DNA of 64,000 bases from Aptenodytes patagonicus (lineage: Eukaryota > Chordata > Aves > Sphenisciformes > Spheniscidae), in contig NC_134962.1 of the NCBI RefSeq assembly GCF_965638725.1, positions 1,805,501-1,869,500 on the forward strand, given 5' to 3'. Shown in pieces: positions 10,267 through 49,123 of this stretch (position 1 is its first letter; every line of letters begins with the position of its first letter). A model generated the notes under the pieces. It was not told the DNA's origin and made no database searches. It saw only the letters and a list, made by a program, of their open reading frames with translations. The position numbers and the translations under genes were made by a program.

Positions 10267-13036
10267 GTACGCGCTGCCCACGGCCCCCCTGCTTTCCCTC
10301 CTGGCGCTGGGGACGGAGTTGGGGGCCCCTTGGTGGCACGCGGTGGCTGCACGTGGAGACCCCACGTGTGCCTGTCCTGAGCTGGGACCGCTGGGATCTG
10401 CCGCTCTGCTCACCCCGAATCCCCAGCCGCAGCCCCAGTGCAACTCTGCCTGGCCTGATCCTGCACCCCTGTGCCTCGCTGCCCCCCGCCGCACCCCCTG
10501 TGCCCAAAGGAGCCGGTACCAGCTGGGGATGGGGGATGTGGCCTTGCAGGAGCAGCCTGGAGAGACCTGAGCTGCGAGCGGGATGGGCAGGATGGGTGAT
10601 GCCAGGGGTGACGCTGGGGATGCCCGGCATGGCTCAGGAGGGTGCAGGATGCGATTGAGCCCCCATCCAGCACGGACCGGGCTGCAGGGCTGGCGAAGGA
10701 GCAGGGTTGTGGGTTTGGGGGGTGCTGCTGCTCCAGCGAGGGGCACACGGTGACGCCCATCGTGGCCAGGTCGGGGGCCCGGGGCACCCGCTCCTTGCCC
10801 CCGGTTTGGCCGCCCGCCTCGGGCTCAGCCCTGCTTCTCCCTGCAGCAAGGGCAGGAAGAAGAAGGTCCCTCCAGACGGGGTGAAGCTGGTGGATGAGGT
10901 AAGCGCATGCTGGGTGGGGTGGCAGGATCAGCCCCGGGGGAGCTCTGGGCACCCCAGCTCCTGGCCACGTGCCTGAGGGTGTGTGTTTCCCCCGTTGCAG
11001 TCCCTGCTCAGGCAGACGCAGCTGCGGTCACTCAGCAAGTCCGACACAAAGCTGCACGAGCTGTACCGGGTGAAGGCCAGGGACGACAGTGAGTGGCCGT
11101 CGAGCTGGGGGAGCTGACAGGGGCCGGCGGCCCTTGGCAGGTGCCCCCAGTCCCTGCACCGCCCGGCAAGCGCGTCATGGCATGCGCACACGTGCCATGG
11201 TGCCCGCGCAGTGCCGGCGCAGGGGTTAGTGCTTGCTGCATCCCCGGCGTCCCCCCATCTCCTCTCCTCTCCCCGCAGCCCAGCGGCCAGCCAGCCTGGA
11301 TTTCCCCTGCGCCGCGGCCCTCCCCGCCGGTGCGGACTCCCTGCACAACTCCGGCGTCAGCGTCCTCCTGCACCGCGAGCTGCCCCAGATCCCCGTCCCC
11401 GAGCCCCCGGCCGCCTCCCCGGCCCCCGACCAGACCTACTCCAACCTGCTCTTCACCCCGCTGCGGAAGCCGGTGTCAGACACCGTCTACGAGTGCCTGG
11501 CAGTGCAGGGGGATGATGTCCCGGTGCCCCGTGCGCCTGCTGGCACCCAGGTGTCCCCCCCACGTGCCGGGCACGGGGTGGCTGATTACGCCTGTGTCCG
11601 CAAGGTGAAGAAGACGGTGCCCGCAGAGGTGCAGGATGGGGCTGTGGCGGGGCCTCCTGCAGCCCCGCAGAGGTGCTGGGACGGCACGGGCGATGCCCCC
11701 CGGGCAAAGGTACGGCTCTGAGGGGGTGGCAGGGATGGGGCACGGGGCCAGTGCTGCGCTTGCTGGATGGGGCACACGGGGGGCCGTGTAACGCCCTGCC
11801 TCCCTGTAACACCCGTGTTCAGAGCAGGGTGTAAATTAGGCTACTGCATTTCCAGTAGAGCTTTTAGGAGGGGCAGGATGAAGCTGAGACCCTGAGGGCA
11901 GGTGGTGCCCACAGGGCTGGGCTCTGTGCCCTGCAAAAGGCTCCCCGAGTCATGCAAAAAGCGGGATCCTGTTGCGGTTTAACCCGGCAGGCAGCTGAAC
12001 ACCGCACAGCCGTTCGCTCACTCACCCCCCCGGTGGGATGGGGGAGAGAATTGGGAAAAAAAAAAAGTAAAATTTGTGGGTTGAGATAAAGACAGTTTAA
12101 TAGGACAGAAAAGGAAGGGAAAATAATAATAATAATGATAAAAGAATATACAAGTGATGCACAATGCAATTGCTCACCACCCACTGACCGATGCCCAGCC
12201 AGTCCCCGAGCAGCGGTCACCACCCCCCCTGGCTAATTCCCCCAGTTTCTGTACTGAGTTTGACGTCCCATGGTATGGAATATCCCCTTGGCCAGTTTGG
12301 GTCAGCTCTCCTGGCTGTGCCCCCTCCCAGCTTCTCGCTGGCAGGGCAGGAGAAGCTGAAAAGTCCTTGACTAGTGTAAGCACTGCTCAGCAACAACTAA
12401 ACCATCGGTGTGTTATCAACATTGTTCTCGTACTAAATCCAAAATGCAGCGCTGTGCCAGCTACTAGGAAGAAAATTAACTCTATCCCAGCCGAAACCAG
12501 GACAGATCCCCAATGGGTAATCCACTGCTGGGATCCTGCCGGGGGCTGTGGGAAGCGGGGGGGGGGCAGAGGCGTGGGGATAGCCCGCAGTGGGCAGGGA
12601 TTGCCCCCAAACCCCCACCTTCCTTTTGCAGCTGGAAGAGATGTACTCGACGGTGTGCAAAGCCACCAAGAAGAAAACCCAGGTCCCCGCATCGTCCCCG
12701 AGGGCCGCGAGGGAGGCCGGTGCCGGGTGGCCGTCCCCCCGCCAGGAGGAGGGTGCCCCAGCCGGGTGCTGGTCCCCGGCAGCCCAAGGCTCCTCCGACC
12801 CCTGCTACGAGTCCATCAGCGACAGAGCCTGGACTGCTCAGGGCCGCGGCCCCGACCCAGACTACGAGGCTGTGAACGTTAACTGGAAGAAGGCGGCGAA
12901 ACGGGACAAGCCGGGGAAGCCCTGTGCCCCCGAGAACCTGTACGAAAGCGTCGGTGACATTTGGGCAGGGGAGTCCCGGCGAGCCTCCGGCAGGACAGCG
13001 GCCAACGGGCTGGAGGTGTACATCACCAACCTATAG
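10151..13036 (+). CDS. LIME1: LIME1, Lck-interacting transmembrane adaptor (five coding exons)
   Basis: Exons 10151-10266, 10847-10898, 11001-11088, 11279-11709 and 12632-13036 join in phase to a 363-residue protein, longer than human LIME1 (about 295). A short extracellular N-terminus leads to one membrane segment (residues ~17-33, LPASAALALLGVLVYLGALC). CAAC (CxxC, a palmitoylation motif) and a basic stop-transfer RRKGRKKK follow. The cytoplasmic tail carries spaced tyrosines: YSNL, YECL, YACV, YSTV, YESI, YEAV and YESV. It ends VYITNL. In mammals LIME1 sits in lipid rafts of lymphocytes; Src-family kinases phosphorylate it and it then binds Csk, Grb2 and other SH2 proteins. Start choice: the ATG just precedes the hydrophobic segment, and an in-frame ATG 54 nt upstream falls across the acceptor. 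The tail resembles PAG1 (CBP), but the syntenic position favours LIME1. Confidence 0.87.
10847..10898 (+). CDS. LIME1: LIME1 coding exon 2: basic juxtamembrane segment
   Basis: A 52-nt exon with acceptor cttctccctgcag and donor GAG|gtaagc. It encodes KGRKKKVPPDGVKLVDE; its first base completes the split arginine. Confidence 0.82.
11001..11088 (+). CDS. LIME1: LIME1 coding exon 3
   Basis: 88 nt, acceptor cccccgttgcag, donor A|gtgagt. It encodes SLLRQTQLRSLSKSDTKLHE followed by LYRVKARDD, a charged stretch of a kind shared by TRAP adaptors. Confidence 0.8.
11279..11709 (+). CDS. LIME1: LIME1 coding exon 4: first tyrosine cluster
   Basis: 431 nt between ctccccgcag and AAG|gtacgg. It contains TYSNLLFTP (a YxN motif suited to Grb2-type SH2 domains), VYECLAV and DYACVRKV. 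If the donor is not used, translation stops three codons later (VRL-stop), which would give a shorter tail lacking the exon-5 tyrosines. Confidence 0.83.
11965..11969 (+). repeat. Target-site duplication, left copy (GATCC)
   Basis: Exact 5-bp match to 12505-12509, immediately outside the LTR. Confidence 0.8.
11970..12504 (-). mobile_element. Solo LTR of an endogenous retrovirus, antisense in LIME1 intron 4
   Basis: The 535-bp element begins TGTTGCGG and ends CCAGGACA (TG...CA), with a direct 5-bp GATCC duplication on each side (11965-11969 and 12505-12509). Read on the minus strand it has the layout of an LTR: a U3-like start (TGTCCTGGTTTCGGCTGGGA), then toward the other end ATTAAACTGTCTTTATCTC, a polyadenylation-like region. 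No gag, pol or env sequence remains, so it is a recombined solo LTR. I recognise the sequence as a family common in neoavian birds, probably class III (ERVL-like), which agrees with the 5-bp duplication; the family name is not certain. Confidence 0.85.
12505..12509 (+). repeat. Target-site duplication, right copy (GATCC)
   Basis: Exact 5-bp match to 11965-11969, immediately outside the LTR. Confidence 0.8.
12632..13036 (+). CDS. LIME1: LIME1 coding exon 5: second tyrosine cluster and C-terminus
   Basis: Acceptor ttccttttgcag; 134 codons and TAG. It contains MYSTVCK (like the Csk-recruiting YSSV of PAG1), CYESISD, DYEAVN and LYESVGD. It ends ITNL, which fits a class I PDZ-ligand pattern (T at -2, L at 0). 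Confidence 0.84.
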   Translation: MEEMYSTVCKATKKKTQVPASSPRAAREAGAGWPSPRQEEGAPAGCWSPAAQGSSDPCYESISDRAWTAQGRGPDPDYEAVNVNWKKAAKRDKPGKPCAPENLYESVGDIWAGESRRASGRTAANGLEVYITNL

Positions 13037-13800: not shown

Positions 13801-16469
13801 CCTTGTCAGGAGAAAACAAACTGGATCTAAAACTCTGGTTCTGATGGCTGGTGCTGCTGCTGCAGCAACCTGGTGGTGCCAGCGCCAGGAGAGTGGCTTC
13901 GGGTGCAGCGTAACCACAAGCGGGTGCACCCGCCCGCACGGATGGTTTTGCACCTCCGAGATGGGGATGTGCAGCCACCAAGAGCTGCTGAAACGGGGTG
14001 GGCCACCCCGGAGCAGGGACTTGCCATGGCTGTGCCTAAAACCACGGCTTGGGGGCTCTGCATGGGGTCAGGGTCGGAGCCGGGGTGCGTTTGCACAGCG
14101 CTTGCTGCCCACTTGCCTCCATGTTGCTCCCGCAGGTGCTGCAGCCTCAACGGGTGCCAAAAATGCTCGGGAGAGCTGGATGTGCACTCGGAATCCTCGG
14201 GCCCCGGGGGCTCAAACTTTCCTCCTCTCCTCCCCGCAGGGAGTTTGGCATCCCTGCCCCAAGGGACGCCCGGTGTCCCCCGGGGGATGCGCCTGGGGGG
14301 TGAGCTCTGAAGGCACTGGGAGGTGGGTGCTGCGCTGATGGTGGCCCTGGTTTCACTGCAGCCCCCCTGGATGTAGCACAGCTGCTTTGCATGGGCCGGA
14401 GGCTGCCCGACCTCGCGGCACAGTGGCCTGGTGCTCGCAGGAGCTGGCTGGGACCTGCGGCAGCAGAGCCGCTGTGCCGTGCGGCAGGCGGGCAGGCAGG
14501 AAGCCGTGTGCATTCCTTCTGCAGCTTTGCCCCTCCATCGAAGCGGGCGAAGAGATTAAAAATGAAAACAAGGCGCTCAGCAAAACCCGCTGCAGGCTGA
14601 AGACGTTAAAGCTGGGAGGCAGCTCAGGCGCTCGTGCCGCTTTGTCAGCCCCACGCTCGATGCCAAACCACAGCCGCTCGAGATAGAGGAGTCGGCCCCG
14701 GCAGCTGCTCCCATCCCCCTGCAAGATAAGGGCCCAGATAGAAAACGGCACGGGGCGGCTGGCGCCGATGCTGCCGCGCTCTTCCTGCTGCCGGCTGTGC
14801 CACACCGGCGCGTGGGCACCCGTCACACTGCCCCCGGCCGCATCCTTCCCCTGCTCCCTTTCTTCATCGTCCCATCCCTCCGGCACCACCTGAATCCCCT
14901 GGGAGCTGCCTTTGGGCTGCACTGGCCCCATGCAGGAGCATCACCTCCTTGCGGGACCACAGCTGCTTCACTCCCGGGGCAAGATGGGCCCTGCACTGCC
15001 CGCGGGGCCGGGACGGTGTTGGTGCTGCCCACGGGGTCGGGATGTGTGTACCACTGTGCCGCTTCCCCGGGGAAAGGCAGGCTCGGCATGGGGCTGCCCC
15101 CGGGCCAGGGAAAGCTTCTGCTCTCGCTGAGCTGGGGGCGGCCAAAGCATCTCCCAAACCTGCCCCAACAGCAGCAGGAAAAGCCCCGTGTGCAGGGCTG
15201 CCTGCTCGCCTGTAGTTCCCATGCTGCCTGTGAGACTCGGCAGAGCCGGACTCGCATTTAAATAAGAGAACAACTGCCCAGTCCTCGGGGCGATGGAAAA
15301 TGTGCCCGGAACCCCGGCTGGAGGCTCAAAAACTGGCTGGCGAATGAAGGATCCATCCCAAAACGTTGCTTGGAGTGTCGTGGTCCAGCTGGGAAGCTTG
15401 GGGCCGGTGTCAGAGCGAGGGGAGCGGGTAGGGCTGGGAGCACCCCTCCTTGTCCCAGGGGACAGCAGGCTCCCCGCTCCTCCCCGCTGGCTGGGAGCCC
15501 ACTCGGGGCCAGGCTCCCCGTCACGCTGGGAGGGGACGGTGCTGGGAGGGGACGGTGCTGCACGGTGCCGTTCCCGCAAGGGGGAGCGAGCAGGAGCCCG
15601 GCACACACTGTACAGTGCTGCACGCCACGCAGTGCTGCACTCTGTAGGGTGCTGCACGGTGCTGCATGCTGTATTGCACGCTGCATGTTGTCGCATGCTG
15701 TATGGTGCTGCGCGGTTCTGTACACCGTACTGCATGCTGGTGCGGTGCTGCACGCTGTAAGGATACGCGCACTGCGTGGCTCTGCACCCCACGTGGCTCC
15801 GCAACCCATATGGCTCCGCAGTCTGTATGGCTCTGCACGCTGTATGGCTGCACGCAGCATATGGCTCTGCACCCGGACCAGCTCCACACCCACACAGCTC
15901 TGCGCGCCATGTGGCTCCGGACCCCGTACAGCCCCATACTCCGTGCAGCTTCACACCCCATATGGCCCTGGACCCCATATGGCCCTGGACCCCTTGCAGC
16001 TCTGTACCCCACGAGCAGGCAGCCAGGCGGCTCAGGAGAGACAGGCAGCGCGGGCAAGGACCCGGCTCCCTCTGCAACACCACCCGGGAGAGGGGCACCA
16101 CAGCCCAGCCCAGAGCCGGCCCCAGCCCCGGCGAGGGCATCCAGGTACCACGGGAGCATCTCCCAGGGATGTGGTGCCGGGCTGCCACCCTGCCGAGCCA
16201 CCCTGCCCAGGAAAGGGGGTCGGGCTGGTGGCACCAGAGCCCTTGTGCAACGGGCCGGCGATGCTCACGGGAGTTGCACAACACCAAATCTGCTGGAGCC
16301 GCCAGCTCAGCGCTTCGGCTGGCGTTAACGATTAAACCAGAGCGGGGGGCAGCCAGCGGAGCCACCACCCGGGTCCCGCTGCGGCAGAGCCCGGGCTGGT
16401 TATCATAACTCCGGGGGGAGGAGAGGCGGCGTGCCTGCCGCCGGTGCTGCGGGGCTCAGTCATTAACTC
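13801..16469. other. Intergenic LIME1-SLC2A4RG, GC-rich, no gene recognised
   Basis: Long open frames on both strands are a by-product of GC-rich, stop-poor sequence and of the minisatellite at 15616-16013. I see no conserved domain and no convincing splice pairs. Confidence 0.55.
15616..16013 (+). repeat. 17-bp minisatellite
   Basis: From 15777 the array is clean, with about 14 successive 17-mers of the form TGGCTCTGCACCCCATA (e.g. TGGCTCCGCAACCCATA, TGGCTCTGCACGCTGTA, TGGCCCTGGACCCCATA). To the left, 15616-15776 is a more degenerate TGCTGCACGCTGTA version. Because 17 is not a multiple of 3, all frames cycle through similar low-complexity peptides, which explains the long spurious open frames. 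Confidence 0.85.
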
Positions 16470-16569
16470 NNNNNNNNNNNNNNNNNNNNNNNNNNNNNNN
16501 NNNNNNNNNNNNNNNNNNNNNNNNNNNNNNNNNNNNNNNNNNNNNNNNNNNNNNNNNNNNNNNNNNNNN
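16470..16569. other. Assembly gap (100 N)
   Basis: Exactly 100 Ns, the conventional size for a gap of unknown length. True sequence just upstream of the SLC2A4RG promoter is missing. Confidence 0.99.
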
Positions 16570-16821
16570 AATTCCGCCCTATAATAATAAAATCAGAACT
16601 TTTTGGGGACACCCGGCAACTTTCGGGGAGCCCCCCGACTTTGGCGGGGAGGGGGGGGGGGGGCGCGACTTTACGGGGGCCGCCCGCCGGTCTCCGAGTC
16701 CCAAAACTAACGGGGGGGGGACCCGAAACGCCGGTTTAAGGGACGGTGGATGGAGGGGGGGGGTCGGTTTTTGGGGGGCCCCGCGGGCAGCGCGCGGGGC
16801 GGCGGGAGGGCGGGGCGCGCG

Positions 16822-16832
16822 AAGATGGCCGC
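16822..16832 (+). promoter_or_regulatory. YY1-type motif (AAGATGGCCGC)
   Basis: Close match to the AAGATGGCGGC consensus, inside the CpG island 250 bp before the coding start. Confidence 0.4.
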
Positions 16833-16839
16833 TGCCGGC

Positions 16840-16890
16840 GGGGGCGTGTCGCGGCGGGGGCGTGTCGCGGCGGGGGCGTGTCGCGGCGCG
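16840..16890 (+). repeat. 16-bp GC-box repeat, three copies
   Basis: CGTGTCGCGGCGGGGG is repeated with starts at 16845, 16861 and 16877. Each unit ends in a G run that forms a GGGGCGTG Sp/KLF-like site. Confidence 0.75.
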
Positions 16891-16911
16891 TAAAGTGGCA
16901 GCGCGGCGGAG

Positions 16912-16916
16912 CCAAT
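16912..16916 (+). promoter_or_regulatory. CCAAT box 1
   Basis: AGCCAATAGG, a good NF-Y type site, 170 bp before the ATG. Confidence 0.5.
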
Positions 16917-16962
16917 AGGAAGCGGCGAAAGCGGCGGCCGCGTTCCAACCCGGGCGCGTTGG

Positions 16963-28618: not shown

Positions 28619-29005
28619 CTAGGAAATCCAGGTAAAATCCTTGTCGTTCTCCCCAGAGTTGTCCTGCTCCTGCGGAGAGTCGACATCTTTGTCATCATCT
28701 AAAATCACATCATCTTGTGACATTCCTACGTCATCCTTCCACTTGATGTCGTCGTCGTCTCCCATCTCCTCGTCTCCTTCCACTTTGATGTCATCCGGGT
28801 CTTCCATGTACTGGCCTTCCCCGGGGTAGCACTCGTCTGGAGACCCTTCTCCCCCGTTGTGGTCCAGGTGACCAGCTATGCCTCGACCAGAGCAATCGGC
28901 ACAAACTCCATGGCGGCGAGAGCCGTGCTTAATCCCCACGCTGGCCGCAGACATGAACACTCGGTTGCACACTTTGCAGACGTATTTTTTATCTTTGCTG
29001 TGGAC
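28619..29005 (-). CDS. ZBTB46: ZBTB46 last coding exon (canonical)
   Basis: Acceptor ctccttttccag, phase 0. 128 codons plus TAG. It begins VHSKDKKYVCKVC, contains the glycine-rich GIAGHLDHNGGEGS and the acidic DDDDIKWKDDVGM region, and stops after FTWIS. Confidence 0.94.
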   Translation of the reverse strand, partial: VHSKDKKYVCKVCNRVFMSAASVGIKHGSRRHGVCADCSGRGIAGHLDHNGGEGSPDECYPGEGQYMEDPDDIKVEGDEEMGDDDDIKWKDDVGMSQDDVILDDDKDVDSPQEQDNSGENDKDFTWIS

Positions 29006-32000: not shown

Positions 32001-35000
32001 CCTGCCAGGTTTAAGCAGTTAGCAGTCGCTTGTGATGCTGCGACAGACCAGGTAAGAAAGTCCAGTACGCGTGGAGACAAATCACTTCAAACTAGAAGCA
32101 AGAAACTTTCGGTTCAGGTTTTTTTTTTTAAGCTGAAAACCTTGAGGATATTACAGGGGTAGCGCTTCCTTCTGGACACAGCCCTTTCACTGCAACGGGG
32201 CGAGAAACCTCGGTTTATGCTCTGCCACCACACGGGAGTATCGCTTGAGATGCAAAGCTTTTAGAAAGAAAATCTTGTTTTTAATTTAATATTCCAATTC
32301 AAAGAAAACAAGTGTTTCTATTCTATTTAAATTTTATATAAAGACTATGAAAACATGCTTTTTAATTTGAGCTAAACAAACTAAAATAGTCCCTTTTGTC
32401 TTTGGTTATCAGCTGAGGAACTGAGAGAAACATGGGTTTTGCTGTGTTAAACCTACTTCCTTTTCCTACGTCTTATTTTTATAACATGTATTTTTATTTG
32501 ACGCACACCAGCATTCATCTTTACAGATTTACCCAAGAGTTGACAATTAAGCCCCAAAATATCATATGCACCGGAAATAAGATGACAAGACAAGCAAAGC
32601 GCACGAATCCAGCAGCTAATCTTGCCACAAGCGCTTCAGCCAGCCTGCACGACCGCTTTTGTAAATGAAGATCACGGTGTCATTTGCATATAAGAAAATA
32701 CCCCTTTTCGTAGCTTCGTTTCAAAAGAAACTTCAGATAAATAACGGAACTGGAATTTTTCTGGGGCCTTACTTACAACAGTACCAAAAAAACCCCTGAA
32801 TCCCTGTCCTTTTTTTCTTTGTTGCATCCATTCCAAGATACCTCTGAGTCATTTATGGCTCTTTGGAAACGAAAACAAATTGGTATTGTCAGGGTTGCAC
32901 TTTTTTCAGGAATTGGCACTAAAAATTTGTAATCCAGCTGGTATTTTCTAAACTAGCTTCATTCCTGACATAAAAGAAGTCATACAGAGATTCAGACAGA
33001 CATATATCCTCTCCTGTATGTGTTCACAAACAGCTGATTTCACCCCCCCTGGGTGTATAACAGAACTTGAACTTCAGACTCAACAGAACCAAGTCACTCA
33101 CCTAGAATGAGTCCAGCAGCAAAAATTGAGAACTAAAATTAATTTGCAGACCACCTCAGTTTCGCTCCTGGAGGATATAATGCATTTTCCTGCCTTCCCC
33201 ACAGTACGTAAAGATATGCTGATTCTCATTAGGATAGAAATTTATAGAGCAAGAAAAGGAACTGCAAATTTTGTTACACTCGAACCAAGTTGCGTTACTG
33301 CTGTTAAACTGCTTTTGAAGGAAGGCAGGCAAGGGGACGCACGCGCTTGCAGGACTGGGGTGAGGGCATTAAAGCTCTTTGTGGCTTTTTGAGAACTACA
33401 AGCAGGAAAACATTAATTACTCTAAGCACACCTCCTCCAGTAAGAATTCTTTACATTCAAAATTTAATAGATAATATAAATATGATGTAGATAATATAAA
33501 TATGGAAAAAGTTATTTCAATGACCTCAACAAAGCAATTCTTTGAGTCACTGAAACTGTCACTCTTGTGATTTTTTTTTTTTAATATCTCACTGTATTAG
33601 AACCCCACAGCTACCATGCCCAGTATTTAAAAAAAAAAAAAAATTGAAGTTTTCTCTACAAGCTTAATTAGAGGGGCACCAGAACTTGCTGGTGTGCATT
33701 ACTGAAATAATTACGTAGAAACTATTTGCTCTTCCACAGTATCACCTCTATACCAAGCTTTGAGACACCACTTTAAGATGGGAAATTAATTCTCCCCTGA
33801 AAAAAAAAGCAAAAAGTTTGGCTTAAAATTTTGTTTCTGAAGAAGTTGTGAAAAGCCAGACAACGGCACCAGCCAGCCTCCTAGTCGGCTTTGAGCAGCC
33901 GTCTTTAATAAGGCGTAGCATTATTGTCGATAACTAAGCATTGACGGACCAGAGTAGCTTCGCCTGGAATTCTTCTTGCTGAGCGACTTATTTTAAAGCT
34001 TTCCGCACCAAGTCATTCAACCTATTAAAAACCCCTTCCTTTCCCACCCTGAAGACAGCATCAGCTATTCTACCTCCCCTCCCTAACGCCCAGGCTCTCC
34101 CCGGCCGTCGGGGTTGCATGGGAAGGAGAAGGCTGCGCTGGAGAGCGAGGCTGGCTTTGCGGGGCTGGCTCAGCCCCGGCTGCTTCGAGGTGCAACTCGG
34201 GAAACCCTCCGGCCGAGCTAGCAGAGCAGGTGGAGGTTAGCTCTGGATGAACAGGCAGCAAAACACGGGCCCTTTGAAAGGCAGGGAAAAAAAAAAAAGA
34301 CACTGGAGAAGCCTTCAGAGGAGCCCCAGAGGGGAAAACAAAATACAGACCTAAATCAGATGAAGCTCCTGTTATCTTTAACCTAAACAAATCGGCTGTT
34401 TCCACCCAGCGCCTGCCCTCTTACCAAGGTGTGCCGCTTCATGTGCTCCCGGCGGGTGAACTTCTTCCCGCAGATCTCACAGGGATAGGGTCTTTCTCCC
34501 GTGTGGGATCGCATGTGTCTCTTCAGGATGCACTGATGCATGGCTGAAAAACTGCAGTACGGGCACTTGAATTTCTTCCTGATGACCGTGAACTCGTTGA
34601 CTGTAAGAGAGCAGGCAAAACACGCAGATTACTTTCAGAATGTCTCAAAACGGTCAGTCTTCTCGTTTACTATTTCGCTATTAAATTAGTTCAGTGTGAA
34701 ATCACACTCTCACCTCTTAACCATCTACAATTTTTTTTAATCCTTATACTGTATTATTGCACTTACATTATTAAAGCTAAGAACTTCAAGTACTTTCATC
34801 AGAGAAGCTTTTGAACAAGCCAATACACAAACATTTAGCAACGGTCTGTAACACACATTGCCTAACGCTTGCTAAATGGCAAATAAAGAGGGCTGACAGT
34901 CTGCCGTAATTCTGATTTATTATAATGAATTACCCTAAATATCAAGATCTAAAATTCTAACACTATGATTTGTGGAAGAAGGAGCTCGCCGGGAACAGAA

Positions 35001-38000: not shown

Positions 38001-41000
38001 GAGTTAACATTTTCACAGTACTGTTAAATATATGCACCCACAAGTACATATATTTAATGAACAACATACCAGCTTTGGTATGAGTACAATCTTTTGTCTA
38101 AGTGACAATATTTTATAGAGCTTACGTATAGCAGCATTAAGGACCTAAGAAATAATCTTTAACAAGATCATGAAGACCATTAACAGTAGTGCCACAGATA
38201 ACTAGCTACTGGACCAACTATGGGAAGAATAGCACCAAGAAATGGAGAACGAAATACAAACAGTGCCGTAGTAAAAATCTATGTACTTAACTTCACGAAA
38301 GTACTTACAGAAGATGTGCATTTTTAAAACCAACACAACAGTGCTTGGAAAAAAGCCTTTGGTATTGTCATCTCCAGTAACTTTACTTATTTCACTGAGG
38401 CTGTTAAATGAAATAGGCTCCTACATCCCTGACTTGAGAGAAGAAAAAGCACTAGTGATATACTGCCCGATAGAGCTACTTTGTAGTAACTCTGTAAACT
38501 GATATGTAGTTAATAATCACTGAAATACTACACTAATTTGGTTATTACGAAGAATTCACAAACTTCAAGAGAATTCTTGTCCACTTAATCCTCGTTATAT
38601 TTAAGGTTATAAATAGCAAGGTGCAATTTAACTGTCAAACTTACACGTCCCATCATCTTCCCATGCCATTTTCTAACACAAAAATCCTACTTTTAAGAAG
38701 TTTTCTACACAAACTCTGTAAGCCGCTGCTACGTTATACCCTACGGTTTTAACATTTTAAAAAAAACCTACTCCTGGTCCTGAAGGGAAACGCTGGAAGT
38801 TCTCAGTGCCGAAGTCAGGAAGCACTCTGATGTACAGGCCAAGTAAAATACTACTTAAACCTCTGTTAGAGAGAGAATGAGTTGACCTGACTATAGAAAA
38901 ATAGTTCCATGTTGAATTCAATTCTCAAATATGAGAAAAAATGAACAAACATGAAACGTCATTAACTATTATCGTGTGAACGAAGCCTTTTAAAAATTTG
39001 CTGAAATTACTTTCGCTGGCATCTTACTTTTCCGATTCAGACAAATTCTGCCACGCTGCTCCCAAATTTCCAGGTAAGGCTCATTTTGGTCACAACTTTC
39101 TCTTCTGGCTCGGCTTTCTCCTTCCTCACTCGCTGGTTATTTAAGAGCAAAATAAATTACGAGGCAGTTAAACTGACATCTGTACGAAGGGAAGCTGACA
39201 GGCTATAAACTATACACATTCACAGGCGGCCGTGATCCACAGCGCCAAAGATGTCAATGGGAACAAGAGCGAAAAACACGAACGTGACTTTGCAAAAAAA
39301 AATAAAATTTAAGAAAATGATCGAAGTATGGCATACTACACTGTATCAGAACATATTCTCAACTCTGACCGCACCCTGCTCAAACAAAGAGTAAGAACTA
39401 AGCCAAGGAGGGAAACTCTGGCTTCCCAACCCTCAGAAAGCCAGCCCTGATGTGGCACGGAGCGCTCTCCCCGAAGCTCCGACTCACAGCAGGAACCGGC
39501 AGGGCAGCGCTGCACCGGAACGTACCTGTTCCCTCTCTACGAGAGCAAGGGCAGCAGGAACCAGATGATCTCTCTCACCTAGCTTTCCACAGGAAACAGC
39601 TTTGCAAGAAACTCTCCACTGGAGACCCCCAGGCTGCTCAAGTCCAACTTTGTGCACGACCAAATATTTCTCATTTTTGTCTCCCTGAGATGCGACAACA
39701 TTATGAGAAAGAGCTTTTCTGAAGGACCCTAAAGATCAGTTGTAGAAGTTGCTTTCGTCTCCTCAGCTCGCTCTCTCGCACACTAAGGAGAGCAACCCTA
39801 CAACGCTAAAGCTCAAGCTGCTGACAAGCCGTGCTGTACGCAGCGCAGCTGGAAAGCACTACACTTGATTATGCTACTTTCGTTTAACAGTTACTATAAT
39901 CTGGTTTTGCATGTAAATATATAGCAAGAGACATAAATATTTAATCTTTTAAAAAAATAAATGAATTTCATATAATAGTATAGGAATTACAGTAAGACTT
40001 CTCCCTCCAGTAACAACCATTACTGATTTTGTATGTGCACCCAAGGTTACAATTAGATCTTCTATGTAAACCCTCCTCTCCTCTACATTCACTTTGGCTA
40101 ACTTAATTATATAAAACAAACAAGTCCGAAAATTTACAGAATTCCTGAAAGCCACAGCCATACTCTAGTATATTTTAAAGAGAGTCCTAAAAATACCCAA
40201 ACATAGTATTGATAAAATATACAAGCCTTGCAACAACTTTCAAGCCCAAATAATATACCCTGTTGCACATATGAACAAGCAGCATGTTTTTCTCCTTTAA
40301 ATGACACAGAAAACCAGACTTATAAACAGCTTACAGGACCGAGCAACCTAGTGCCTTCACAGCTCCTAATCTCAAGCTGAAAAACCCTGAAATGCCCGAA
40401 TTGTCTAGTGGACAGAGCGCTAGACCAGAACTCAGAAGACTGAATTCTATTATTAATTCTATTGCTAACACGCTCAACAAGCTGAGCTATGTTATTTTCC
40501 CAGGGAATACGAGGAAAACATCACCATTTCTTTTATAAAGCACTTTGAGATCTACTGAAAAAAAAAGTTTAAGGTAGTATAAGCCCACAGTATGATCACA
40601 CCAATAAGATAGCCAAAGTGCCCATTCTATGGACTGACAAAAGTTGTCTTTGGACAAAAATTGCACCGTGGCTGCAGTTACACAGTATCTGGAACCAGCA
40701 CATTATCAACCTGATCAGCTTTGGGGAGTTACTCTATTGTATTAACACCTGTGGTACGTTTATTTGCAGCGCGAGAACAACGGAACAATTTGCTTTTCCT
40801 GGTTTAAAAGAAGTGTCTCATATACGCAACAGTAGCTACGCGTCCTCAGGATCCTTGTTTTGTCCTACACTGTCCAAAAGCTCAAACCCGCCCAGCTGGG
40901 CAGAGCCCAGGTAACACGCTTTCCCGTGGTTAGTGAGGTTCTTCTGTGTACCGAAGCCCTTGCCACAGAAGAGACACACAAAAGTACGCTCGTTCGAGTG

Positions 41001-44000
41001 CACAGACATAAGATGCCGGTTTAAGTCTGTCTTGTCTCGAAACAGCTTGGCACAGTTAGGACACTGCATCTTCTTACAGTTGAAGTGGATGGTCTTTTCA
41101 TGCCGATCCATGTTTGATTTCAGAGTGAAGCTCGCGGGGCATTTGGAGCACTGGAAGCGGGCGAGCTGGCCAGGAGGCAGGCTGTCAGCAAGGCCGGGCC
41201 GGGAGCAGTCAACCAAGTCGAACGGGAGAAGCATGGAGAAAGCATGCTCGTGGATGTGCTCCTTCAGCTCTTCAGCACACTGGAAAACCCTCCTGCAGAA
41301 ACCACAGGTCAGCCTCTTGGCTAGGGCTGAATCCAGGAACAGGCCATCAGTGGTTATGTCCATGTCTTCGGATCTCGAGAAACTCGTATCTAAAATAGAA
41401 ATACACATACGCAAGTACAAATCAGCGTCTTCTGGTATAAAATAATGATAGTTTAAAAAAATATTTTTCTCTCTACTTACCCAAATCAGAGTTATCAAAC
41501 TGCCAAAGTGCTAAAAATCCATCATAAGTGGCCTGCAAACAAAAAGCATACTTAAGTTAAGGCAAGCATTTACAAGAACACATCTTTGTAGCTAGTGCTC
41601 AGACTCCCATCTTATCATTGCCTTCACCCCTTCTTTAACGGAGGCTCATCGTTTGACTCGGCAACCCTATTTGCCTTTACAAAGCTTTCGCGTCAAAGCG
41701 GCTAAGTTAACTGGGCCGTATTTTGCAAGATTTGGTGTTTAAGGACAGTAATCAACATGCCTATTTAGGTCCTGGGTAACTACTCAAGTTTTCAGTCTTG
41801 CTAAGCACCTGCAGCTCCCACTCAGGCCAATAGGAAAGAAACACTGGATAGAAAATGTCTAGCAGATACAACAGAACTGGAAAATTCTCCCTTAGCCTTA
41901 CATAGCTACTTTTTCTTTCCACACAGAAAAGCCCATAGAAAACAAACACCTTCTGGGTAGTTCCCTTTATGCAACGGTCTCTGGCATCGCTGATCCAAAT
42001 TATAAATAAAAGCGGATTTTTTTTTTTTTCATAAAGCATTTGCAATATGCCAGCGTGCGGCAGATGGCAACCCTCTATGAGGCAGAGGCACGATGCAGCC
42101 TGGGCAGGTCTGCCGGAGACCGGGCAAGCAGCTACCAGCCGTTCTTAGCAGCTCACTTTCCTCTAAGGTGACTGCAAAGGAAAAAAATCTGTGTTTCCAC
42201 CCATTTGTTTAATGGAACTAAAGGCTCATTCAAGAATACTAAGAATAAGAAATGCCACAGAAAGCTATGGATTTTATGTCAAATTCCTGGCTCCCGTAAT
42301 ACAGAAAGCCAGCCTGCTTCTATCTGAATTTAGACAGTTACAAGAAACCCAAATGCAAAACACCAGAAGTGGGCAATGGATAGCTGGGGTCTCGGCTATC
42401 TTTATGCCGTTATTATATTCTTGTATGCAGTGTTTTGCAAACAAAGGGATTTACAATAAAGAAGACATGTATACTTTAAAAAAAAAATAAAATAAAATAC
42501 AGTTTTCTGAATACAAGTTCTGCTGAGGTAAGGCAGAAAGGATAAAATTAGGACAGCACCAGCCCTGACCTCAGACTTCTAGTTTTAAAATAACCTATAT
42601 AAAAAAAAAAAAAAAAAAAGGCGAACAGATCAAAGTATAAGGTATTACAGTCTTTCAAAGTACTCCTAACTGGGGAGAATTTGATCAAACAGATACCTTT
42701 GCATTTAAATTTCTTTGCATTTTTCCCCACGATCTTACCTGGGTTGAGGAAGGCACCTCTCCTTTTATCATGGTTTCTGGTGACATTTCACCAGAAGAGC
42801 AGATCTCAGGGGGGCTCTGAGTGGCAAGGTGTGATGAAGGCAGCGGGGGAGATGGTGCTTCCACTTTGCCATCACATTCGCCCCTTGAACGATTCAAGTT
42901 GGTGCCAGGCCCTGGGGAACACAGGAAACGAATCTCACCCACGTGAACTAGCACCAGCTGGTGGTTTTAAAAAAGGCCTTGCAAAGGCAGCGCACCAGCA
43001 CTCGCAGCTTATCTTCTGTCAGTGGGAGGGAATGCAGCAGGACAGTGATGCCAGGCTTTTTGTTTGTTTGTTTTAAAACCAGCCTCCCCACCCAAAATGC
43101 CTCGTCTGTGCGTGATGTATGCGGTGGAGTTATATCGCATGGCACGGTCACTAAAGAGTCCGTCGGGAGAAAGAAGCACAGGGCAGCACAAACATCCAGA
43201 GCAATCGCATTTCTGAAAGACACCTCTTGGAGAAGCACCATTTCAAACACACACATTTCAATCTTTAAGTAACATACACACCAACTTTATTCTGCTACTA
43301 ACTTTCTTGAAAATGTACATCAAAGCTTCAGATCTCAAGATTTGACCGTGGTGTTTTATTTAATATAGTACTGTCAGTCCTTGATCTCAAAGTGCTTTAC
43401 AAAAGATTGGAAAAAATATTCCTTTCATTCTATAGCTAGCAAGCATGGAAGTTCAGATATTTGTACAAAACTATTCAGTCACACCTGACAGTCGTTACAT
43501 TCTAAAAATCTACTGTAGTTAAAAAGGAAAACATTATTTGTCCAGCCGAAGCAGAATCGTAGCCTCTTGCCTACGCTGTAGCAACAGCCAAATGGTAAAC
43601 AATATTCCAGAAACTGCACTGATAATCAATGACAAATCTACGTACAAATAAAGACTGTGTAACCAAGATCGGCATACATTACAAGTTGTTAAATGAATTT
43701 TAACAGACACCTTGACTGAATATTGGAATGACATATTGAGCAGGTCATTATTTTTGAAAAGCAAGCAGGCGAAATCAGAAGCAAATATGGCATAAAAGTA
43801 AACAAATTCATATTTAAAGCACTCAATGCCCTAAAGGCTTTTTTATTTCTAACACAAAAGAGTCTGATTGAAACCTTTACACGTATAAAACCCACACTCT
43901 TTAATGCAGCTACAAATAACAAGTCAAAGTTTATACTATGTCTGAATACAATACACTGTGATCTGGGTCACAACAAAGCATTCGAGTGAAACCACACAAA

Positions 44001-47000
44001 GGTTTCTAAATGCGAACAATCCCAAACCTAACTTTTTATCAGCTATCAAAGGAAATTCTGCTCTTGTGCCACAGGCTGGATGTTTGATTTACCTTCCTCC
44101 TCTTTGATCGCAGATTGAAATCTTTCACAACTTAGTTAACTCTATTCAAGTGTGATAACAATACGTCAAGTTTTCATTTTGGTGGTGCTCATCTATTGCT
44201 GTTATAATTTAGAGGCAGGACAACAAAATGCTAAAACCCTGTAAATTCAAGATAGGAAAAAATGGGGGGAAAAGTGAATTCATCAGTATTTCCCGTTAGA
44301 AACTGTTACCAGGAATCCAGCTCTCCAGGTCCATAGCGGAATTCCTGCCTAGACATCCACACGTTCCTTTTTTTCCCCTCAACATCCCAAACTGATTCAA
44401 ACTGCCCTGTTTACATTGAAGCTATGCACTGTGACCATGGACAACTGAGAGGCGTCTCTGGGTTGCACTTCCTTAAACAAATGGTATTTTAGCATACAGT
44501 AAAGATAAGCCAGTGGGGTCTGGCTTGATTAATGCTTTATTAGCACCTTTACAGAATTACAGAGGTTCCCAAGAAGCTATGCGCTTCTTAAAGCAAAAGT
44601 TAAGGCTAATGAATGAGCAATGAAATAGTCAGGAGAAACAATAAACTCAATCATCCAACATGAGCCACAAAGATGTACAAGGCAACAAAGTACAAAGATT
44701 ATTTTTAAAACAATAATTAACATTTATTTGCTTTCAACAACTGCAAGTAACACCAGAAGAGAGACCCCCATAAATGACCCATACTTTGTACACGAGAACG
44801 CAAACAGCACCTGAAGTTATGTTTTGTCCCATTCTGACTAGTACTGTGAGAAACCTTTTTCCCCTCCTAAATTTGTATTGAAATGAATTTTAATGAAAAG
44901 TATTTTCATTTCTAAATCAGAAATCAAAAGTGCTTTCCTTCAGTCAGCTTCGCGTACGGAAGATGATGCACTGGTGTAGCATTATTTATATGAATATAGT
45001 ATTCTCTGACAGCTCGACAGTAAACTATTGTGGAAAACAGAAAGGCAAAGGTTATTATATCTCATTTAAAATTGCATCCATTCTCCCCTAAATCTTGGTT
45101 AACCACGTACAAAAATTCTGTGCCAAACTGAATACCTTTAACTCCCTCTTGGGAAAGTTGACCACTGTGTAAAATGTATTCCTTTAACATCCAGTGTGAG
45201 TATAAATTATTGGCTCCAATGAACCACTGACTAAAAATAACGTATTAGCTGGTTTGCCCAAAAGAAAAGGGCTCTGTGTACCATGTAATCACTTGGACAG
45301 CAAGCTTCATAGGAATTGCTTCTATAAACAGTTTCAGTTGCAACAGGGTAAACAGGAAAAGCCAAACTTAGACATATAAAAAAATAGGCAATGTACTATT
45401 CTGAAAGTGTGGAAGAGTCGCCCTTTAAGGTAGTCAATCGCCCCAAAATCTGAAAGTTTTCTGACTTTTTTTTTTAAATGAGAAAACAAAGATGTAAACT
45501 AACCAACTCATTTTCTAATGAATATTAAAATTCTCATTCTCTTGATTATACTTGGCAAAACCATCTAAAAGCATTCAACTAAGGCCTTTGAGACTTTTGT
45601 AGATGTGGTGTAACCGTACGGAACAATGCTACCAAAGTTCAGTATCATAAATTAAATAAACCACACATTTTTAAACCAAGGAGCTCAGCGGAACAGCACT
45701 GCTGAAGTTGGAAATCAGTACAGAATAACCTGCTTTTACAGACAAACCATGAAAACATGTAAGAGAGAAGGAAAACTGAACCTCTTATATTGTCTTATCT
45801 GAAAGACATCCCCAACAACAATGCGGGTTCAGTAACTAATGGTACCCAAGACGACCTCAGTGTTACCCATGAATAACTGACACACAGTTTTCTGCAAAAC
45901 CTGCATATTCTTTAGGTTTCTGACGAGCATATGAACGACGTCAGTCTTGATCATACACCATGAACGTCATAAATTCTCAGAGCCCTTCAGCTGCAGGTTA
46001 TCTGGCAACTGTGTTACCCGAATGGCAAGATATTTAATTTTTCCCTTCTGATTTTAAATTAGTTTGAGCTGGTTAGCTATAGAAACGCTGTACTTAGGTT
46101 TGGCTACATCACAGTGAGACAACACCCCCCACACATCCCGGGCTTCATTTTCCATCAGCAGAATGTTAAGTAATTTCACACTTCATAGGATCATTACAAC
46201 ATACAATGAATTAGGAAAAAAGAACTTGGGGTAAAATGAAAACCTTGGGGTGTCCTCTATTAACTTTTACAACAGTATGAACTATGCGGAAGAAAAATGA
46301 AAACTTGCAATGTATGCGGTAACTTGGAGAGTAATATCCCCTTCAGAAACAGCTCATCAGAATTTTAAACGTGTATAATATACTCTTCAGATCTGTCCAC
46401 CTCCATTAAGTCTTTTCCTCCAGAAAAGAAAAATAAACATGAACACCGCTCCTTGAGTCAGTTACTTACTGTAGCGCTTCATAAGAGAGTACGAAGACAA
46501 TCCAGTGATAGCAGTTAAGATTAAAAACACACTCCACATCTTTTAAACTCGAGAGATTGATCACTTAAAATTCTTGAAATTAGTGCGTTTCCCTTTCAAA
46601 TCAGACAGATTAAAAAAAACTGTGCCGGTTTTGGGTTTTAAAAAAAAGAAAAAAAATCTTTTTCACTGTGCTCCTGCCTACTCCCCCGCCTTTTTTTTTT
46701 TTTTTTTTTTAATATAACCCAGGACTTAAAATGACTCAACATCCTCAAATTGTGTTTGAAGAAAAATGTGAAAAACACCTACAAAGCTAGCACCAACCTA
46801 GACTGTGCTTTTAGATCTCCAGAATCTTCTTACCACTTGCTTTACTGTTGTTTTATACACTGAAAATTCTCATTAAACTTGACGTCCTATTGTATTCAGT
46901 AATGACCACTTAAAAGCAAGCAAGTCTCATATCAGAACATCTTTTTCAAGTGATTAAAATAAATCAATACCTGTGAATCTGAAGAAGATGAAAGAAAAAT

Positions 47001-49123
47001 ACGTCCCTTAACTCCCTGCCTCTGTAAAAATCCTCTCACCAGGCCACAGCCACATCCACCACAGACCAAGCGAGCAGTCTTCCTTTTGTCTCATGCAATT
47101 CACCTTGCTTCCACAGAAGTGAGGTAATTGAAGCTTGGCTGAATGAAATTCAAGTAATAGTGAGAGGACTGGAAAACAGGGACCTCAAATACAGGCTGGA
47201 AGGCCCTCCTGAGTCACCGCACCCCTCAGTGAGCTATCATTTACCCCCTTTTCTAAATCTATGAAGCTTTATTTTAAACCCAGTTGGTCTTCTGCCTACA
47301 CCATGCCTGTTCCTGAACTCCGCTTCTCAGCTGGTTAGGCAATCTCTAATTTCTAGCCCAAATTTATGACTGCCTTATACTCATTTGTCTTTATGCCAAG
47401 TGGTCCTTCAGCTTTCAAGTAAAATCTAAAACCCTCCAACCAAGAGGAGGATGATGGAAAAAGGGCAGCCCCGTCATTATTCCAGTTTATCATGACAGAA
47501 AATGGAACCGCCGATTTCACCTGTCACGAGTCACAGATCCGAACACGCGGTGCATAAATCGCCCTCGCAGCCGTGCACCGATCTACGCTCCCACCCGTCC
47601 CGGTGCCAGCTGAGGGCACTCTTCTCACTGCACGCAAGCCCGGCGATTAAACTGCTGCACAGGATCTTTGCTATTTCATTGCGACGACGGGATTTTCAAC
47701 CCAGGAGCCTAGTTCGAACCATCTAAATCTGATTCAATTGGAGATCATTCAGTAAGCGAACTACTGTGGAAGTAACAAGAACACTGCATTAGCAATTCTC
47801 CCCCAAACATTAAAGCTGCAGAATAAGGTACAAAAACATTTTTCTCCTCTAAATTTAGGAAGATTTTTTAAAAAATAATTCTACTGTTCAGACATGAGAA
47901 GCAAAAAGAGATACTAAGACCAACATTATGTTGTGCAGTTTTTTCCCTTTATCGTACAACCCAAGTGACCATTAAAAGTTACCTATTTTTTTTGCCATCA
48001 AGGAAACTAAAAATAAATACCTTAAGTGAACTTTTCTTTCTATTTAATTGGTCAATTTCCTCAGTATAGATTAAAGTAAACCTTTTCTGCTGGAAACTAA
48101 CACGTAGTACTCAAAGCCACCACTTGCTCTATTTTAGGTCACAAATACTATCTCCATCTTCTGAGAGTGTTATTAAAATACAGCATTAATAATTTCTCTT
48201 CCTTTGTGCACTGGAGAATCAAACTATTTTACGACTGCAATGAAGAAAATACGAAAGTATGCTGAAAAATAAGCTGTCCGCACATAACGGTACATATCAG
48301 CCATCTCCAACAGATCACCAGTAGAAAAACATTCGTTTCCATGAGCAAGTATAACAAAACAATCAATAGCTGCTCATTACTTAGAGAGAGGTCTAAAAGT
48401 AAACACCAAGAAGTAAAGATCACACGATCTACAAAAATCACAGCTGTTTCTACAGACACGGGAGCAGCAGTCAAGGCTCCTTTCAACATTAGGCAATTTT
48501 GGATTCAAAACCTTTGCAGCTACTTCTTTTACCATAAGGACTCAAATACTTCGTATTTTGTTTGTAAGTACCATTTCGCAAACAAGTAAAAGAAATCTGA
48601 GGACAAGCACTACATACACATACACTAAATACTTCCTTCCATGGCTTCAGCGGTTAACATTAAAGTTGGATCGATACCAAACACAGGTTTTCAAATTTTA
48701 TGGAAAGTGGGATTAAGCAGGACTTAAAACTGGATATAAACATACCAGTAGTAATAAACAAGACAGTGACCTGTATTTTCGTCTCACTAAAGATTTCACT
48801 TAATGTATCAGTAAACAAAAAATATAAAAACACAAACTTACGAGAGAGAGAATGCGTGCCTTTGGGTAAGTACTCAAACAGCAGAGAACTATCCTCTCCC
48901 AGCATGTCGGCTTTCAGAGACAGCAAACTGTTCTTACTCATGAGAGCCGCGCGCAGGTTGGCGACGGTGGCAGCCTGGAGCGCATCCTCCTTCTCCGGAG
49001 TCAGGGGCTGAGAGATGTAACTGGCTTCCCCAGCGATGAGGGCTTCGTCGACGTTCGCGTAGGGGTCCGACCGCTCCACTCTGCTGTCAGAGCTGCTGGG
49101 CTCTGTTACTGTCACATCAGCAC
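28619..49123 (-). CDS. ZBTB46: ZBTB46, BTB zinc-finger transcription factor (3' part, canonical isoform)
   Basis: Exons 48842-49123, 34425-34600 and 28619-29005 join in phase (1, then 0) and give the last 280 residues. The first is the region before the fingers (TEPSSSDSRVE, QPLTPEKEDAL, KNSLLSLKADML, LFEYLPKG). The second carries C2H2 finger 1 (FKCPYCSFSAMHQC...H-x3-H) and most of finger 2 (YPCEICGKKFTRREHMKRH). The third completes finger 2, adds a finger-like YVCKVCNRVF...H-x4-H and RRHGVCADCSGRG, then an acidic tail ending KDFTWIS. ZBTB46 is a nuclear repressor that marks classical dendritic cells and endothelium in mammals. The N-terminal BTB exon is not in the window and must lie beyond 64000. 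The acidic tail also resembles ZBTB10, but gene order supports ZBTB46. Confidence 0.93.
29164..29191. repeat. 28-bp exact repeat, copy B
   Basis: Identical to 27771-27798, here in the last ZBTB46 intron 160 bp upstream of the final exon's acceptor. A TGCCTTTTGATC word also recurs after both copies (near 28005 and 29260). Confidence 0.85.
30020..30097 (-). mobile_element. CR1 LINE 3'-end fragment
   Basis: TTGGAAAGGACCTACAACAA and TCATCTAGTCCAACTGCC are the antisense of the standard avian CR1 3' tail. Only about 80 bp is recognisable; the element's sense is minus, the same as ZBTB46. Confidence 0.8.
34425..34600 (-). CDS. ZBTB46: ZBTB46 zinc-finger exon (canonical)
   Basis: 176 nt; acceptor ttctcttacag and donor TTG|gtaaga. 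The first two bases complete a Leu codon with the C left by the 48842 exon, giving SLS-L-NEF. Encodes one whole and most of a second C2H2 finger joined by a TGERP linker. Confidence 0.95.
34601..40758 (-). other. ZBTB46 intron, between the alternative terminal exon and the canonical finger exon
   Basis: AT-rich, with no further exon recognised. A SINE remnant lies at 40397-40590. The short open frames lack domains. Confidence 0.6.
40397..40590 (+). mobile_element. Ancient tRNA-derived SINE remnant (MIR/CORE-SINE type)
   Basis: The head GTCTAGTGGACAGAGCGCTA is tRNA-like, followed by ACTCAGAAGACTGAATTCTA and, at the end, TAAAGCACTTTGAGATC (40536-40552). The layout matches amniote MIR-type elements. 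It lies 170 bp downstream of the alternative ZBTB46 AATAAA. Confidence 0.65.
40759..40764 (-). terminator. Polyadenylation signal for the alternative isoform
   Basis: Minus-strand AATAAA, 72 nt after the alternative stop, followed by CACAGGTGTTAATAC. It would give a very short 3'UTR, consistent with a real terminal exon. Confidence 0.5.
40836..41389 (-). CDS. Alternative ZBTB46 exon 3: four zinc fingers and stop
   Basis: The acceptor tgtatttctattttag opens a 554-nt coding part. Fingers 2, 3 and 4 are in tandem with 7-8 residue linkers; finger 1 is separated by about 35 residues (LLPFDLVDCSRPGLADSLPP region). All zinc ligands are intact. Finger helices read CAEELKEH, LKSNMDRH, DKTDLNRH and TQKNLTNH. 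Ends TAG at 40836-40838. Confidence 0.85.
40836..49123 (-). CDS. ZBTB46: Predicted ZBTB46 isoform with an alternative four-finger C-terminus
   Basis: Exons 42739-42911, 41481-41532 and 40836-41389 lie inside the intron between the shared exon (48842-49123) and the canonical finger exon. Phases run 1 to 1, 0 to 0 and 1 to 1 without a mismatch. The new tail is 259 residues: a Ser/Pro-rich linker (57), a 17-residue segment (ATYDGFLALWQFDNSDL), then finger 1 LTCGFCRRVF..., finger 2 FQCSKCPASF..., finger 3 MQCPNCAKLF... and finger 4 FVCLFCGKGF..., with C-x2-C-x12-H-x3/4-H spacing; finger 4 ends H-x3-C. It stops at PEDA. None of the ten-plus splice and finger positions is broken, so it appears functional. 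I do not recognise this tail from mammalian ZBTB46. Alternatives: a separate gene nested in the intron, or exons used only from the BTB exon. Confidence 0.72.
41390..41480 (-). other. Short intron between alternative exons 2 and 3
   Basis: A 91-nt intron, gtaagtagag...tattttag. Its small size explains why the terminal open frame appears to run on to 41498. Confidence 0.7.
41481..41532 (-). CDS. Alternative ZBTB46 exon 2: 52-nt small exon
   Basis: Acceptor gctttttgtttgcag and donor TTGG|gtaagt are both near-ideal. It encodes ATYDGFLALWQFDNSDL and leaves one G, which with AT of the next exon gives Asp. Too short for simple ORF calling; found by its splice sites and phase. Confidence 0.72.
42739..42911 (-). 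CDS. Alternative ZBTB46 exon 1: Ser/Pro-rich linker
   Basis: 173 nt; acceptor cctgtgttccccag, donor CAG|gtaaga. Two leading bases plus the C of the shared exon give Arg, then PGTNLNRSRGECDGKVE and on to GEVPSSTQ, ending in phase 0. Contains no cysteine-histidine motif. Confidence 0.72.
42912..48841 (-). other. ZBTB46 intron downstream of the shared exon
   Basis: AT-rich; I see no coding exon, apart from the SINE tail at 43376-43420 and T/A runs (46688-46712). Confidence 0.6.
43376..43420 (-). mobile_element. SINE tail fragment of the same type
   Basis: The minus strand contains TAAAGCACTTTGAGATC (43383-43399), a 17-nt exact match to the 40397 element's tail. Only the tail is recognisable. 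Confidence 0.5.
48842..49123 (-). CDS. ZBTB46: ZBTB46 shared exon before the zinc fingers
   Basis: 282 nt, acceptor tcgtcacgcag, donor C|gtaagt, phase 1 at both ends, so its inclusion or skipping keeps the frame. Contains 93 whole codons (ADVTVTEPSS to GTHSLS) matching the segment just upstream of the fingers in ZBTB46. Confidence 0.92.

Follow-up and report, generated by a model that had tools for sequence, protein, structure and literature searches.

In ZBTB46 of Aptenodytes patagonicus, three extra exons (A, B and C) on the minus strand lie inside a 14.2 kb (14,241-nt) intron and join in frame to the shared exon at 48842-49123. We estimate at about 85% the probability that this one gene gives rise to several proteins that have the BTB dimerisation part in common and differ in their DNA-binding fingers. 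The window, which is the whole stretch of 64,000 nucleotides that was analysed, carries ZBTB46 on its minus strand, and the features of the locus are collected in Table 1. The layout is established by the sequence, reading frames and splice sites found here, together with three non-canonical forms that are present as gene models in other species.

Table 1. Features of the ZBTB46 locus, numbered from the first letter of the window unless indicated
Feature	Position	Strand	Description
BTB exon	L009 3145..2176		970 nt; 2-3 kb beyond the window's end
Shared linker exon	48842..49123	-	282 nt; phase 1 in, phase 1 out; used by all four forms described
Alternative exon A	42739..42911	-	173 nt; phase 1 in, phase 0 out
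Alternative exon B	41481..41532	-	52 nt; phase 0 in, phase 1 out
Exon C, hybrid	40836..41389	-	554 nt including TAG; terminal (four fingers) or internal via donor 41078
C-short	41078..41389	-	312 nt; exon C to internal donor ACT/GTAAGA, phase 1; in-frame join to canonical finger exon
Alternative finger 1	41244..41306	-	C2H2; contact positions variable
Alternative finger 2	41085..41150	-	C2H2
Alternative finger 3	40998..41063	-	C2H2; terminal form only
Alternative finger 4	40914..40976	-	C2HC; terminal form only
Candidate poly(A) signal, AATAAA, of the terminal form	40759..40764	-	weak alone
Canonical finger exon	34425..34600	-	176 nt; phase 1 in
Canonical last exon	28619..29005	-	stop TAG

The canonical exons were assembled into a product of 593 residues, the frame of which is open to the stop. 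The BTB exon, the shared linker and the canonical finger exons are present in order, as in a ZBTB46 orthologue; BTB residues 1-125 are identical to those of ibis, turtle and opossum ZBTB46 models (125/125), and the canonical finger exon shows 58/59 identity to ZBTB46 models in the orthologue comparison. Two of the six window ORFs that were tested matched Pfam families, namely LIME1 at 11230-11718 (1.8e-8) and G-patch at 1766-2446 (1.1e-4, slightly over its cut-off). LIME1 and ZGPAT are the neighbours of ZBTB46 at the human locus, and these two matches fit the ZBTB46 neighbourhood. A run of unknown bases at 16409-16918 (100 N in the whole window) marks an assembly gap adjoining a GC-rich stretch.

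In human ZBTB46, a circular RNA of 1255 nt is made of exons 2 and 3, and the finger domain is encoded by exon 4, according to an excerpt of a published report (PMC13421333). Together, the bird BTB and linker exons measure 1252 nt (970 + 282), which by length fits the human circle. The shared linker exon would thus match human exon 3, and the alternative exons would lie in the equivalent of human intron 3. In the window, the shared exon ends in a single base C followed by its donor (CTC/GTAAGT). In gene models from emu (P0001) and Melanerpes formicivorus (P0040), the shared exon is cut short (AALM/R) and followed directly by exon A; the shared exon of the window has a matching ATGA/GTAAGA, an internal alternative donor there too. 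In a black swan model (P0005), the shared exon is skipped and the BTB exon is joined directly to exon A.

The introns around exons A, B and C are all GT-AG and the joined frame is open, which bears out the coordinates, splice sites and phases that the first-pass annotation had assigned to the three exons. Its count of 259 encoded residues is correct when the split codon is included, with 258 following that codon. Ranked by a simple donor matrix, the donor of A is first, that of B seventh and the internal donor of C 70th among the 974 GT dinucleotides in the intron. Computed joins yield forms of 593, 665, 668 and 772 residues, all open to their stops, of which the terminal form (the shared exon plus A, B and C) has 665 residues, versus 593 for the canonical product. 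When B is skipped, the joins of A to the canonical exon and of A to C shift the frame and meet early stops (489 and 475 residues, respectively), so A and B must travel together. A direct join from the shared exon to C is also open, at 590 residues. The modules join in phase 1, the sole phase 0 join being that between A and B, which makes the modules interchangeable. The AATAAA was correctly placed by the earlier annotation at 72 nt after the stop, starting at 40764. As strong evidence for a terminal exon, however, we rejected it, because the same 14,241-nt intron contains 24 AATAAA or ATTAAA hexamers.

Exon C scores well over the Pfam cut-offs for C2H2 fingers. A search of all six frames of the window with a simple finger pattern gave eight matches, seven on the minus strand and one on the plus strand. 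Exon C accounts for four of them and canonical ZBTB46 for two; the other two (62283 minus and 57565 plus) each have stop codons inside or directly next to the match. The finger cluster of exon C is therefore more than chance. Four fingers are present, as annotated at first pass, but the fourth is of the C2HC type (CLFCGKGF..NHGKAC) and not C2H2. The description of the new fingers as unrelated to the canonical ones holds to the extent that alternative fingers 3 and 4 share only generic finger similarity with the canonical finger exon (18/50 residues). No second copy of the tail was found among the best-scoring candidates in the 1.35 Gb assembly, in which the next best match has 38% identity over 80 residues. 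Among solved chains, the highest scores go to proteins with many fingers, including ZNF568, PRDM9 and CTCF.

Protein databases were searched with three tail queries, which returned 79 matches for the window tail, 109 for the koala tail and 125 for the spotted gar tail (best 120 used). Together, the matches listed comprise 164 distinct proteins, of which 122 contain the tail's second finger and 114 contain both this finger and a BTB-region motif; the remaining matches include partial models and generic finger proteins. That 114 proteins join the same tail to the ZBTB46 BTB region supports the original proposal that the exons are alternative C-terminal ends of this gene. Names among the matches include ZBTB46 of land vertebrates (emu, great tit, black swan, turtles, alligator, tuatara, lizards, geckos, platypus, echidna, many marsupials and caecilians), ray-finned fishes (gar, bowfin, sturgeon, paddlefish, reedfish and teleosts) and cartilaginous fishes (Pristiophorus, Heptranchias, Heterodontus and Narcine). 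Terminal-form models named ZBTB46, mostly as 'isoform X..', are found in emu, great tit, turtles, tuatara, lizards, platypus, echidna, koala, caecilians, spotted gar and sharks. A further form, in which A and B are followed by the canonical exons, accounts for 11 of the 164 proteins among the matches listed, including those of kiwi, painted turtle, opossum and wallaby. Matches at 35-44% identity (P0055, P0062, P0070 and others) were considered as a possible third alternative end; this was rejected, as those that were read run from A and B into the canonical exon and had matched through A and B. By convention, names with 'PREDICTED' or 'isoform X' denote automatic gene models, and the database models of the tail look automatic. 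Since public gene models already contain the exons, their existence is no novelty. No published description of them was found among the matches listed when open-licence literature was searched by ZBTB46 and its alias BZEL.

The first-pass annotation had proposed that the BTB part is kept while the fingers are swapped. Models of the terminal form agree with this, but exon C can instead stack fingers through the donor at 41078, which is of only moderate strength. The resulting stacked form of 772 residues places the first two alternative fingers ahead of the canonical ones. The corresponding junction, two residues past finger 2, is seen in 11 of the 122 proteins with the second finger (ten bird cluster representatives and the electric ray Narcine). 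The three largest stacked-form bird clusters hold 191, 57 and 54 sequences, although members of these 90% clusters need not all be of one form. At the junction codon, the other 111 proteins have Lys (41), Arg (36), His (17), Cys (11), Trp (3), Gly (2) or Glu (1); the codon was seen as DNA only in the window and is elsewhere deduced from the residue. A codon of the type NGT, which the donor requires, is possible for Cys (six of seven bird representatives, alligator and catfishes), Arg (nine of eleven lizards, tuatara, gar, sharks and some teleosts) and Gly (caecilians), and impossible for Lys (spiny-finned teleosts), His (marsupials, monotremes and two of three turtles), Trp and Glu. Because His cannot be encoded by NGT, a stacked junction at that site is impossible in the models with this residue (13 from marsupials, 2 from monotremes and 2 of the 3 from turtles). 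From this distribution of residues, the stacked form may be old and repeatedly lost. In a Varanus komodoensis model (P0054), exon C passes to the canonical exon after finger 1 rather than finger 2, which reflects either another internal donor or a model error.

To assess conservation, 97 tails were aligned to the window tail, after eleven with canonical sequence and six without the cut motif had been left out of the 114; many of the 97 come from related species. The four ligands of finger 1 are kept in 97/97, and its contact positions vary, with Glu at three of four in the window. Finger 2 is nearly invariant, a result that is partly circular, as the tails were chosen by the finger 2 pattern and the matches were found through shared 5-residue words. 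The ligands of finger 3 (C 97/97, C 95/96, H 97/97 and H 97/97) and finger 4 (C 94/95, C 95/95, H 94/96 and C 93/96) are kept almost throughout. The contact positions of finger 3 are D (97/97), T (96/97), D (97/97) and R (94/97), and those of finger 4 are T (95/95), K (94/95) and N (92/95), followed by a fourth position that is Thr in 87/95 and Asn in the window. Elsewhere in the tail, the sequence drifts: between the window and spotted gar, identity is 18/49 in exon A, 2/17 in exon B and 3/18 at the C-terminus, and exon A of the window matches that of emu at 50/57 positions and that of koala at 44/57. The canonical fingers are more conserved than the alternative ones, with 58/59 identity to alligator gar for the canonical finger exon versus 57/79 to spotted gar for alternative fingers 2-4. 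Several models depart from this pattern and speak against a uniform role. In the garter snake (P0049), the last His of finger 2 is replaced by Pro and a Cys of finger 3 by Gly, and the protein ends early; fingers 3 and 4 are shortened in a pheasant model (P0041); and finger 4 is broken in Alligator sinensis (P0021). The terminal fingers thus look decayed in some lineages, judging from these sequences, some of which could reflect gene-model or assembly errors. The quail and pheasant models keep the ligands of fingers 1 and 2, so that either half of exon C may be retained or lost independently of the other.

These observations lead us to propose the following scheme. After the shared exon, the transcript would either be spliced to the canonical finger exon or include A and B; after A and B, it would either be spliced to the canonical exon or enter exon C. 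At the signal level, exon C has the two elements of a composite terminal exon, a donor (ACT/GTAAGA) after 41078 and an AATAAA at 40764, and protein models of both the terminal and the stacked kind exist in birds. Should the poly(A) signal win, C would be the last exon, and the protein would gain four new fingers and lose the canonical ones. Should the donor win, the first two new fingers would be stacked ahead of the canonical ones. We infer from the DNA that the exons are used in RNA in this bird, that splicing and polyadenylation compete at exon C and that the forms have different DNA targets.

Other explanations of the same exons were weighed against this scheme. The stacked form could be the main bird product. 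Exon C would then normally be internal and end at 41078, and whatever follows (fingers 3 and 4 with their stop and poly(A) signal) would represent minor or decaying read-through. Stacked forms do make up the largest bird clusters, the pheasant model retains fingers 1 and 2 with shortened fingers 3 and 4, and the ray also has the stacked junction; however, cluster sizes mirror which birds were sequenced, nearly all 97 tails have intact ligands and contact residues in fingers 3 and 4, and the junction codon is His in the marsupial, monotreme and turtle models described above. We consider this explanation unlikely. Less probable still is that the tail form acts as a regulator, dimerising through its BTB domain and drawing canonical ZBTB46 off its sites. 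Such a role would accord with a BTB part common to all forms and with a finger 1 whose contact positions are mostly Glu in the window and variable among the 97 tails, but from fishes to birds fingers 3 and 4 hardly vary at their contact positions, which points to binding of a specific DNA.

It is very improbable that exons A-C are a separate gene or a pseudogene within the ZBTB46 intron. The intron is long, and 8 of the 122 proteins with the second finger have no BTB motif, some of them being named partial or hypothetical. Against this, the other 114 link the finger set to the BTB region, the phases fit at every junction, conservation extends to cartilaginous fishes, and no parent gene was found in this genome among the best candidates scored. 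The reading that we prefer remains one gene that encodes several proteins with a common BTB part and different fingers.

No placental ZBTB46 with the tail is named among the matches listed of the three tail searches, and eight unnamed matches lack the second-finger pattern. Placental proteins are present in the database, as an elephant shrew finger protein matched the koala tail. As clusters stand for several sequences and the best 120 of the 125 matches to the spotted gar tail were used, these results are a strong hint, not proof, that the tail was lost in placental mammals. No frog or salamander is named among the matches listed of the same searches. Tentatively, and at slightly less than even odds, ZBTB46 would be a locus as old as jawed vertebrates that both swaps and stacks fingers by means of a hybrid exon, providing a second DNA-binding domain either apart from or fused to the first; this capacity would have been lost in placentals, leaving a reduced gene in mouse and human. 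ZBTB46 is among the markers that define classical dendritic cells, and if this proposal is true, what has been learned of its dendritic-cell biology in mouse and human concerns a reduced form of the gene. If many vertebrates make finger-variant forms, the targets in birds, reptiles, marsupials and fishes could not be inferred from mouse. Putative plasmacytoid dendritic cells of chicken, unlike those of mice, are reported to contain ZBTB46 RNA, in a source whose excerpt mentions no isoforms (PMC10634274); this contrast makes form-specific expression of interest. ZBTB46 would also be a vertebrate counterpart to the arthropod TTK-type BTB factors that, in the excerpted account, have several DNA-binding ends (PMC11426971).

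Canonical ZBTB46 (BTBD4, zDC) is a product of the same gene without A, B and C. Another vertebrate factor with alternative finger sets is ZFP64, which has no BTB domain; a PDB entry named 'Zinc finger protein 64, isoforms 1 and 2' was among the structure matches. A composite terminal exon combines a donor with a downstream poly(A) site, and splicing and polyadenylation are thought to compete there, as stated in an extract of PMC5928244. The usual outcome, in the same extract, is a shortened coding region, whereas the terminal choice at exon C of ZBTB46 would bring in a different finger set. In Drosophila, common BTB exons of lola are joined to alternative C-terminal exons that encode different C2H2 or C2HC fingers, and multiple isoforms go with TTK-type BTBs, which are called arthropod-specific, according to portions of the cited reports (PMC1947980 and PMC11426971 for lola; PMC11426971 for TTK-type BTBs). 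The lola-like character ascribed to ZBTB46 at first pass applies in part: a common BTB part is joined in frame to an alternative finger exon, both in the sequence and in database models, but a strict pattern search of both strands of the window finds one extra finger cluster rather than about 20 alternative ends. Whereas lola has at least 20 forms, made by cis- and trans-splicing, ZBTB46 has one extra finger set in cis on the same strand, the exon of which can also stack fingers; with all parts on one strand, trans-splicing is not needed. We therefore file vertebrate ZBTB46, which works like the arthropod BTB loci with alternative finger ends but has few such ends, as a variant of that class and not as a member.
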